Origin: Collinsella aerofaciens
Lineage (GTDB): Bacteria; Actinomycetota; Coriobacteriia; Coriobacteriales; Coriobacteriaceae
Length of the DNA stretch: 64,000 bases
Assembly: GCF_015557435.1 (NCBI RefSeq)
Contig: NZ_JADNOH010000057.1
Coordinates: 1-64,000 of the forward strand
Direction of reading: 5' to 3'
Position numbers and translations under genes: made by a program. The notes under the pieces are model-generated. The model had not been told where the DNA came from. It made no database searches and saw only the letters and a list, made by a program, of their open reading frames with translations. Below, piece by piece: positions 12,924 to 15,107 of the stretch (positions are counted from its first letter, which is position 1; the number at the start of each line of letters is the position of its first letter).

Positions 12924-13066
12924 AAATGCGCCTTTCCGTTTCCAGATTGTTTCGGGCGTAATGACCCTCTGCTATGTAATCGAGCGTATTTTCGCAGGAA
13001 TGGTGCGTACTTGCACTGCAATTCACAAACTAATGAAAAAACTTTTCAGAAATTTGAATTTGTCGC

Positions 13067-13094
13067 TTGTACAGCAGGCACTTTAGCGTAATAT
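13067..13094 (+). promoter_or_regulatory. sigma-70-type promoter of the argG leader
   Basis: TTGTAC (13067-13072) and TAATAT (13089-13094) are separated by 16 bases in AT-rich DNA. Transcription would start near 13101, giving a leader of about 375 bases before argG. No ArgR operator was recognised around it. Confidence 0.6.
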
Positions 13095-13197
13095 AGCAAC
13101 CATCGAAAACGGAGACGGCAAAAGCACCGCTTACCGAGGAAAAGGTACCGTTTGCGATATTAGAATTGCGCCCGGCGATAGGTGAAAGGAGAGGCAG

Positions 13198-13272
13198 ATG
13201 CAGTTCGTAAAGATCATCACTACTGCAGACAATGCCATCCGACGCCAGCGCGCAATTTCCCGACGACGATAA
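13198..13272 (+). CDS. arginine-rich leader peptide upstream of argG
   Basis: A 24-codon open frame begins at the ATG at 13198 behind a strong GGTGAAAGGAGAGG ribosome site and ends at TAA 13270-13272. Six of the last ten residues are Arg (15, 16, 18, 22, 23, 24), and the peptide ends in three consecutive CGA codons; four of the six Arg codons are CGA, a codon rarely used in the neighbouring genes. It sits between a good promoter and argG, before a terminator-like hairpin at 13337-13382. This is the layout of an attenuation leader peptide that senses charged tRNA-Arg. The frame and composition are seen directly; the regulatory role is inferred. Confidence 0.75.
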   Translation: MQFVKIITTADNAIRRQRAISRRR

Positions 13273-13382
13273 CAATCGTCTCTGTCCGTATGGGGCGAAT
13301 TGCCTCAACAGAGTCATTTTGAGGTCGTTGGGTTTTAGCACGACATTGCTGCATGTTTCTAGGGCATGTTGTGCTGCTTTTT
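13264..13382 (+). promoter_or_regulatory. putative argG attenuator (pause hairpin plus terminator)
   Basis: GACGAT/ATCGTC arms with an AACA loop (13265-13280) overlap the leader peptide stop codon. Further on, AGCACGACAT (13337-13346) pairs over ten positions (one G-U) with ATGTTGTGCT (13366-13375), followed by GCTTTTTG: an intrinsic terminator about 100 bases before argG. Ribosome stalling at the terminal Arg codons would block the first hairpin. I could not define a convincing antiterminator by eye. The terminator lies inside the larger inverted repeat 13312-13426. Confidence 0.6.
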
Positions 13383-13426
13383 GCTATTTAACCTGATATT
13401 GCACGGTTTTTGACCTCGAAATGACT
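13312..13426. repeat. nested inverted repeat in the argG leader
   Basis: AGTCATTTTGAGGTC (13312-13326) and GACCTCGAAATGACT (13412-13426) are complementary with one mismatch and enclose the attenuator terminator. It may be a mobile hairpin element that supplied the terminator, or a stabilising outer helix. Confidence 0.75.
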
Positions 13427-13476
13427 TGCAACTGACCGATGTTCTAACTAGCTACCAAGGGCGAAAGGAAACAGCC

Positions 13477-14703
13477 ATGAGCAAGGAAAAAGTCGTTCTC
13501 GCATATTCCGGTGGTCTTGATACATCCGTATGTGTCAAGTGGCTCCAGGACGAGAAGAATCTCGATGTTGTTTGTGTCTGCGGCAACGTGGGCCAGGAGG
13601 AGACCGGCTTGGATGCCAAGAAGCAGAAGGCGCTTGACCTGGGCGTTCTCGATTGCCAGGTGCTCGACCTGCGCGACGAGTTCTCCGATGAGTTCCTGAC
13701 TAAGGCCATCGCCGCAAACTCCATGTACGAGAACAAGTACCCGCTGCTCTCCGCGCTGTCTCGCCCGCTGCTCGCCAAGAAGCTTGTCGAGGTCGCCCAC
13801 GAGTTTGGCGCGACCTATGTCGCCCACGGCTGCACCGGCAAGGGTAACGACCAGGTCCGTTTTGAGGCCGCCGTCAAGGCCCTCGACCCCGAGCTCAAGG
13901 TTATCGCCCCGGTTCGCGAGTGGGACCTGAAGTGCCGTCCCGACGAGGTCGCCTATGCCCACGCCCACAACGTGCCGGTTCCCGAGGGTGCCAACGACAA
14001 CCCCTACTCCATCGACGACAACCTGTGGGGTCGTGCCATTGAGTGCGGTCACCTGGAGGATCCCTGGAACGAGCCGCTCGACGACGCTTGGGTTATGACC
14101 AAGAATCCCGAGGACACGCCCGACACCCCGACCTACACCGAGATTGAGTTTGAGGCCGGCAAGCCCGTCGCCGTCGATGGCAAGAAGATGAAGCTCTCCG
14201 AGATCGTCATCGCCCTCAACAAGATTTCGGGTGACACCGGCTTTGGCCGTCTCGACCTGGTCGAGGATCGTCTGGTGGGCCTCAAGAGTCGCGAGTGCTA
14301 CGAGGTTCCTGGCGCCCTGACGCTCATCACCGCCCACAAGGCGCTCGAGGACATCTGCGTCGAGGGCGACCTGCTCAAGACCAAGATTAAGCTCGAGCAG
14401 GATTGGGCCACCGCCGTGTACAACGGTCAGTGGTACAGCCCGCTCAAAAACGCGCTCGATGCCTTTATGGCCGACACCCAGAAGTTCGTGACCGGCACCG
14501 TCCGTCTGAAGTTCTTTAAGGGCAACTGCCATGTCGTCGGCCGCAAGAGCCCGTTTAGCCTGTATGACTACGGTCTGGCTACCTACGACCGCGACACTAC
14601 GTTTGACGAGAAGGCCAGCGCCGGCTTTATCGAGATCGATACGCTGTCGCTCAAGACGTGGGCTAAGGTCCAGGGCCCTAGCTCTGCTGCCGCCCAGGCC
14701 TAG
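13477..14703 (+). CDS. argG: argininosuccinate synthase
   Basis: A 408-aa enzyme joining citrulline and aspartate with ATP to give argininosuccinate, the penultimate step of arginine synthesis. The PP-loop ATP site is VLAYSGGLDTSVC (residues 7-19). THGCTGKGNDQVRFE (here AHGCTGKGNDQVRFE), NPYSIDDNLWGRAIE and KSPFSLYDYGLATYD are class signatures. Length matches the family. The start follows GAAAGGAAACAGCC. The upstream leader carries a likely Arg-tRNA-sensing attenuator, and argH lies about 520 bases downstream on the same strand. Confidence 0.97.
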   Translation: MSKEKVVLAYSGGLDTSVCVKWLQDEKNLDVVCVCGNVGQEETGLDAKKQKALDLGVLDCQVLDLRDEFSDEFLTKAIAANSMYENKYPLLSALSRPLLAKKLVEVAHEFGATYVAHGCTGKGNDQVRFEAAVKALDPELKVIAPVREWDLKCRPDEVAYAHAHNVPVPEGANDNPYSIDDNLWGRAIECGHLEDPWNEPLDDAWVMTKNPEDTPDTPTYTEIEFEAGKPVAVDGKKMKLSEIVIALNKISGDTGFGRLDLVEDRLVGLKSRECYEVPGALTLITAHKALEDICVEGDLLKTKIKLEQDWATAVYNGQWYSPLKNALDAFMADTQKFVTGTVRLKFFKGNCHVVGRKSPFSLYDYGLATYDRDTTFDEKASAGFIEIDTLSLKTWAKVQGPSSAAAQA

Positions 14704-14936: not shown

Positions 14937-15107
14937 ATGTTCAATGCTATCGCGCATGCTTTACTTGCCCTCGCGCCCGAGTTCGATGCTGCAAAGGTCG
15001 AGGACGTTCCTATGAGCCTAAAGGCCTGGATCGATGGTTCGCAGGGCAACATTCGGAGGGAGACGTTGGGCGCCAAGTGCATGGCGCGTCACTTCTTTGC
15101 AAATTAG
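14937..15107 (+). CDS. possible 56-aa small protein between argG and argH
   Basis: The frame opens with MFNAIAHALLALAPEFDAA, contains KAWIDGSQGN and ends HFFAN. A GGGGAG ribosome site lies about nine bases before the ATG at 14937. Codon choice is mixed GC-rich and does not exclude a gene. It has a mildly amphipathic N-terminal helix and no membrane segment, metal motif or strong Arg bias, so it does not look like a second arginine leader. I recognise no family; it could be a chance frame. Confidence 0.4.
   Translation: MFNAIAHALLALAPEFDAAKVEDVPMSLKAWIDGSQGNIRRETLGAKCMARHFFAN

Follow-up and report, generated by a model that had tools for sequence, protein, structure and literature searches.

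The window, a stretch of 64,000 nucleotides of Collinsella aerofaciens DNA, lies on contig C28 of a draft genome of 2.37 Mb. On its forward strand, the frame at 13477-14703 had been named argG, coding for argininosuccinate synthase, in an earlier sequence-only reading, and its counterparts in relatives were located genome by genome. Upstream of argG, on the same strand, lies a leader peptide gene of 24 codons, MQFVKIITTADNAIRRQRAISRRR followed by a stop (13198-13272, with the ATG at 13198 and the TAA at 13270-13272), whose frame is kept in the 48 leader-bearing loci fetched from the family. Its Arg codons start at 13240, 13243, 13249, 13261, 13264 and 13267. The frame was found as the sequence-only reading had described it, apart from small corrections, with Arg at six of the last ten codons and CGA CGA CGA at its end. 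CGA, four of the six Arg codons, is indeed rare here: when 11 genes of the window genome are counted, it makes up 5.3% of their Arg codons. On composition alone, at least six Arg in ten codons would occur with a p of about 1e-5, and at least four CGA among six Arg with a p of about 1e-4. The first cluster, CGA CGC CAG CGC (RRQR, 13240-13251), contains the proposed stall codons. The frame is preceded by a Shine-Dalgarno-like sequence, AAAGGAGAGG (13185-13194), which had also been pointed out and is invariant among near relatives, and on sequence grounds the frame is predicted to be translated. The promoter had been called good, which is an overstatement: TTGTAC (13067) matches three and TAATAT (13089) four of the six consensus positions, so that the element at 13067-13094 (forward strand, 16-nt spacer) is at most a weak sigma-70-like promoter with a start inferred near 13101, and a consensus scan of the window region called no promoter. 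The ribosome binding site of argG (13463-13476, forward strand) is predicted by RNA folding to be open in all states. Downstream, between argG and argH, a 56-codon frame (MFNAIAHALLALAPEFDAAKVEDVPMSLKAWIDGSQGNIRRETLGAKCMARHFFAN, 14937-15107, forward strand) is kept in the near relatives L002, L005 and L021 and, judging from its sequence, could possibly encode a small protein of the arginine locus.

The conservation of the leader was examined in 62 argG upstream regions from Coriobacteriaceae, 48 of which carry a frame ending in R-x-R-[AT]-x-x-R-R-R-stop before argG (23 near-identical loci of aerofaciens type and 25 diverged ones). The N-termini of these leaders diverge, and their lengths range from 24 codons in the window group to mostly 36-37 elsewhere in the family. 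The 3' codons are shared by all 48 loci as CGA CGC (CAG/CGC) CGY (GCN/ACG) ATY (TCN/ACC/GCT) CGA CGA CGA TAR, where the third base drifts at the Ala, Ile, Ser and fourth Arg codons while four CGA and one CGC, including the opening CGA CGC of the core, remain unchanged. Thus, the Arg run is kept despite synonymous variation around it, as the sequence-only reading had proposed to check by alignment. At the DNA level, 299 genomes of the order were scanned for the pattern of the leader end. It is present in 49 of them, a single time in each, and these belong without exception to three genera of one family; a reversed control pattern gave no match in the same 299 genomes. Across 85,000 species, the pattern occurs in 43 contigs of this clade and in four others; in the collection with species names, loci of window type belong to Collinsella, for the most part C. 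aerofaciens. The four matches outside the order were rejected as leaders, as L115 lacks a reading of the core and the Arg-rich frames of L102, L116 and L134 appear to be accidental. Within the same genus, one genome (G014, locus L024) has an argG that is 85% identical to that of the window yet no leader, which was either lost or removed by replacement of the upstream region. In another genus of Coriobacteriaceae, the loci L056 and L270 (genomes G053 and G054) have a leader-like frame of similar length before argG that ends in RICALPRRR-stop, with the final codons CCC CGA CGA CGA TAG, possibly a degenerate or early form of the leader.

The leader had appeared as an oddity of Collinsella, a view that was dropped once the argG upstream regions of other families were read. 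Eighty such regions were considered, together with L270 of Coriobacteriaceae, and 39 of them contain an Arg leader core that is homologous or analogous to that of Coriobacteriaceae. It takes the form RRQ[NDASM]RR[ITV][ST] in the family f5, and RRQ[DG]RR or DRRRRxxxLRRRRA-stop in f2, two families that we infer to be Atopobiaceae-like and Eggerthellaceae-like, respectively. The core of L280, LLRRVSRRRLF-stop, shares the letters CGACGC...TTTCCCGACGACGA. The cores of other families mostly open with CGA CGY, and CGA makes up 58% of their Arg codons. One criterion for all groups (a frame 10-60 codons long with three or more CGA and, within twelve codons, five or more Arg) was then applied before argG, with results to be read as counts and not as p-values because related genomes are not independent: such a frame is present in 43 of 45 upstream regions of Collinsella-type genera, in 37 of 79 from other families of the order, in none of 13 from other Coriobacteriaceae genera and in none of 20 from elsewhere in the phylum outside the order. 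The same frames were counted 3, 0, 3 and 1 times, respectively, on the reverse strands, and in 0.7-2.3% of shuffled sequences. Loss of the Arg run in relatives, which had been named as the observation that would speak against the attenuator, was looked for, and the run was instead found to be kept across three families of the order. Apparent leaders ending in RLRRR in another family were excluded as the C-terminus of a longer upstream protein: at L273, L274, L278, L279, L283, L284 and L289, a frame ending in AGDNTIMIAAES...RAIDRLRRR sits immediately before argG in place of the Arg leader, and its end reads by eye as the C-terminus of ArgR.

CGA represents 58-65% of Arg codons in the leaders versus 5% in genes. 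In the closed genome of a relative (G002), a covariance model typed Arg tRNAs with the anticodons ACG (three copies), CCG, TCT and CCT, and a tRNA-Arg with the anticodon TCG was not found among the subset of that genome's tRNA matches that was typed. Decoding of CGA would then fall to the inosine-modified ACG tRNA alone, which pairs with it slowly.

On the RNA side, the leader region can form a set of helices that involve the Arg codons themselves. A hairpin over the leader stop, GACGAT-AACA-ATCGTC (13265-13280), is present as had been noted. Its 5' strand belongs to P1 (CCCGACGACGAT, 13259-13270), a segment that spans the last three Arg codons, leaves out the first Arg cluster and can pair alternatively with P2 at 13275-13280 or with P3b at 13324-13332. 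The stop-codon hairpin (P1:P2) follows, in some version, from the sequence of every relative examined, with a register that slides. It is followed by the stem-loop H2 (13280-13313, CTCTGT...ACAGAG with an inner GGGGC/GCCTC, -14.1 kcal/mol), in which changes on both sides are kept. Two further pairings had been missed: the Arg codons at 13259-13267 pair over 9 bp with P3b at 13324-13332 (CCCGACGAC:GTCGTTGGG), and a 15-nt inverted repeat forms a long-range helix between P3a (AGTCATTTTGAGGTC, 13312-13326) and P4 (GACCTCGAAATGACT, 13412-13426), after which there is no T-run. All of these elements are on the forward strand. The helices were evaluated by a swap test, in which native duplexes are compared with partners exchanged between species among 27 Collinsella-type leaders. 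Both P1:P3b and P3a:P4 are more stable than the swapped duplexes (z -5.3 each, 0/2000), and the stop-codon hairpin has no stability excess over swapped pairs in these 27 leaders; it cannot covary because P1 is constant. In parallel, 25 leaders were aligned with MAFFT, and RNAalifold recovered P1:P3b unprompted from the alignment. At the outer end of this helix, the Ser codon covaries through its third base with the distal base (column 6:89, C-G in 12 and U-A in 5). In a count of pairs, 80.6% of cells pair versus 78.0% upon shuffling (0/500) and at most 48.8% when the strands are slid; up to 4 pairs have changed on both sides, a value reached in 18 of 500 shuffles. P1:P3b and P3a:P4 are mutually exclusive unless pseudoknotted, and P1:P2, P1:P3b and P3:P4 share strands or cross one another, so that the region contains exclusive helices that include the control codons. 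The free energies of two forced states (I and II) hinge on enforced suboptimal pairs and were discarded as evidence.

The second hairpin with a T-run reported by the sequence-only reading is also there. It consists of a terminator-like stem (AGCACGACAT...ATGTTGTGCT, 13337-13375, forward strand, -16.6 kcal/mol) followed by GC and T5 at 13378-13382, and a consensus scan did not call it. The T-run is gone in the near relatives L002 and L013, and about half of the diverged Coriobacteriaceae leaders yielded no intrinsic terminator. Where a leader has a terminator-like hairpin followed by a T-run, a ribosome was placed at the first or second Arg codon (R1/R2) or at the stop, the RNA from its leading edge onwards was folded to obtain the probability of the terminator at equilibrium, and this was compared with 60 dinucleotide shuffles of the intervening RNA; the calculation covers equilibrium folding, leaving out kinetics, pseudoknots and RNA polymerase. 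The probability at R1/R2 versus the stop is 0.01/0.98 in L282, 0.23/1.00 in L291, 0.21/0.98 in L296, 0.00/0.98 in L305, 0.03/0.98 in L306 and 0.65/0.99 in L329, and 0.00/0.96 in L034, a leader of the Collinsella family. In these seven relatives, none of the 60 shuffles reaches the observed switch, which points to a ribosome-dependent terminator at the family level. Over the 18 leaders tested, the mean difference between stall and stop is 0.33 versus 0.006 in shuffled sequences (standard deviation of replicate means 0.03), and 11 of the 18, including the window, display little or no switch. In particular, the terminator of the window (L001) has a probability of 0.99 in every ribosome state, a difference of 0. 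In several relatives, the terminator competes with the helix between the Arg codons and the distal arm, or shares its sequence. The predicted direction of the switch, from starvation to readthrough, fits a biosynthetic gene. In folds without a ribosome, the terminator is predicted to be absent in L305 and L340, which would be antiterminated, unlike the other leaders; in these two, repression may need translation. All in all, the proposal of an arginine attenuator stands as far as the conserved Arg run and the switchable terminator predicted in several relatives are concerned, and does not extend to the window's own T-run hairpin, which is insensitive to the position of the ribosome and whose T-run is lost in close relatives.

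These results suggest that the element upstream of argG is likely a ribosome-mediated attenuator that senses charged tRNA-Arg, as modelled from the folds above, and ribosome-mediated arginine attenuation is probable at the level of the family. Indeed, a conserved short frame with a Shine-Dalgarno sequence is found upstream of argG, and it contains a cluster of codons for the end product of the pathway. When arginine is low, the ribosome would stop at the first Arg pair, leaving P1, with the last Arg codons, outside its footprint; free P1 would pair with P3b, no terminator would form and argG would be transcribed. When arginine is ample, the ribosome would proceed to the stop codon and cover P1, and P3b would be released to the terminator, switching argG off. 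By analogy with relatives, P3b would act as the antiterminator strand in the window. On the sequence data, species of C. aerofaciens type keep the sensor and the P1:P3b helix, and the candidates for their output would be the weak T-run hairpin, the long P3a:P4 helix or Rho; it is possible that the output in the window is a different step, which may be kinetic, Rho-dependent or based on decay. The window element is classed as working like an attenuator, rather than as a proven member, because a ribosome-dependent terminator was tested there and was not found.

Several other explanations have been weighed against codon-based attenuation. The first is that the leader is translated and acts through mRNA decay or termination by Rho, with the helices doing no more than adjusting access. 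In its favour, a conserved intrinsic terminator is missing from the window group and from roughly half of the relatives, and in Salmonella the Arg codons of speF ORF34 operate via Rho and RNase G (PMC6386406). Against it, clear intrinsic terminators are wired to the leader in several relatives, and we regard this explanation as improbable. Alternatively, the nascent peptide RRQRAISRRR could stall the ribosome at or near the stop in response to free arginine, similarly to TnaC and tryptophan, rather than by codon sensing. In Coriobacteriaceae the residues Q, A, I and S are nearly fixed despite third-base drift, which is suggestive only, the core ends exactly at the stop, and other families keep RRQxRRI[ST]. 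Against such an arrest peptide, one group of f2 retains the Arg codons alone (DRRRRSRGLRRRRA), the position of the stop varies in f5 and the frozen CGA favours codon reading; moreover, in L034 and others a ribosome stalled at the stop would mask P1 and so promote termination, the opposite of what is expected of a biosynthetic gene. We give this reading little credence. The same applies to translational attenuation, in which alternative helices would hide or expose the ribosome binding site of argG. Although the P3a:P4 helix covaries and ends near argG, segments that could pair with the Shine-Dalgarno sequence (for example, CGTCC/GGACG) occur in many relatives and many leaders are devoid of an intrinsic terminator, the accessibility of this site is independent of ribosome position in almost all relatives and always open in the window group, and its pairing is no better than that of swapped pairs (z -0.9). 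Sequestration of the Shine-Dalgarno sequence was thus rejected as the output, showing neither dependence on ribosome position nor covariation. Finally, a chance Arg-rich frame in non-coding DNA, a notion nourished by an incidence of short frames with Arg runs of about 1% per upstream region in shuffles and by the four chance-like distant matches, is already refuted by the conservation of the leader, present in 43 of 45 and 37 of 79 upstream regions with codon-specific conservation.

The repressor ArgR, named in the sequence-only reading as the usual control of arginine synthesis, was found in all but one of the 67 family genomes examined (66 of 67), and in the window genome argC-J-B-D (argJ named by a family model, the rest by order and content) is preceded by TGCATGAATATGCA. 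An AT-rich ARG box occurs in 6 of 9 argC and in 5 of 14 leaderless argG upstream regions, but in none of the 44 distinct leader-bearing ones (0.3 expected), which gives no sign of their membership in the ArgR regulon; this evidence is to be taken as a contrast and not as an absolute count because the box was partly defined from the same sequences. At argG, the leader seems to occupy the place in which ArgR would otherwise control the gene. Since ArgR is present and a box precedes argC, attenuation would complement ArgR without replacing it genome-wide. The palindrome TGAAAAAACTTTTCA at 13033 was considered as an ARG box and rejected, being 15 rather than 14 long and not matching the derived box. 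Four genomes (G016, G018, G028 and G029) have no argJ match and keep the leader-bearing argG, consistent with the salvage of citrulline to arginine as the regulated step; G023 has neither gene.

Textbooks present trp, his, leu, thr and ilv as the examples of attenuation by leader peptides, and arginine synthesis as that of a repressor protein, ArgR. In fungi, the arginine attenuator peptide (CPA1/arg-2) undergoes arginine-dependent arrest at its own stop codon, affecting initiation and mRNA decay; like the argG leader it controls an arginine-synthesis gene, but in eukaryotes. The argG leader has in common with the trp, his, leu and thr attenuators a cluster of end-product codons in a short frame, alternative helices, a position before a biosynthetic gene and, in several members, a terminator. 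It differs from them in that the amino acid is arginine, usually the province of ArgR or T-boxes, and in that the rare CGA supplies most of the control codons, of which the last also serve as the antiterminator strand. A search with the Rfam T-box covariance model gave no match at the gathering score or at E<=1, hence no T-box for tRNA-Arg, and no other Rfam family matched beyond irrelevant low-score ones. A survey of Actinobacteria, which gives leader-peptide candidates for trp, ilvB and leuS, saw no conserved regulatory RNA ahead of arginine operons (PMC1262725), and arginine is not mentioned in a wide survey of terminators (PMC2965389). In Salmonella, consecutive Arg codons of the speF leader ORF34 (DUF2618) sense arginine by ribosome pausing and control ornithine decarboxylase via Rho termination, access to the ribosome binding site and RNase G (PMC6386406); ORF34 shares with the argG leader the sensing of arginine by Arg codons, and differs in not serving arginine synthesis, in having no intrinsic-terminator route and in showing no apparent sequence relation. 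Rare Arg codons in the S. aureus leader rbfL also sense arginine limitation, and pausing blocks the ribosome binding site of a biofilm regulator, so that, unlike at argG, the gene is not biosynthetic and starvation represses (PMC13009471). A full-text search of open-licence papers found no earlier description of an argG Arg leader, and transcription attenuation of this ribosome-mediated kind has, as far as we found, no prior report for an arginine-synthesis gene.

A broader and more speculative scenario, to which we assign a rather low likelihood, is an attenuator common to the Coriobacteriales in which the rare CGA serves both as arginine sensor and as antiterminator strand, argG having been taken from ArgR and argCJBD kept by it, and the peptide of the Collinsella branch also aiding the stall. 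If the attenuator is confirmed as conserved across the order, whose members are abundant in the human gut and mouth, arginine would join the amino acids under leader attenuation. It would also exemplify the substitution of one control mechanism for another at just one gene in a pathway, and offer a natural sensor of tRNA-Arg charging in vivo in Collinsella.
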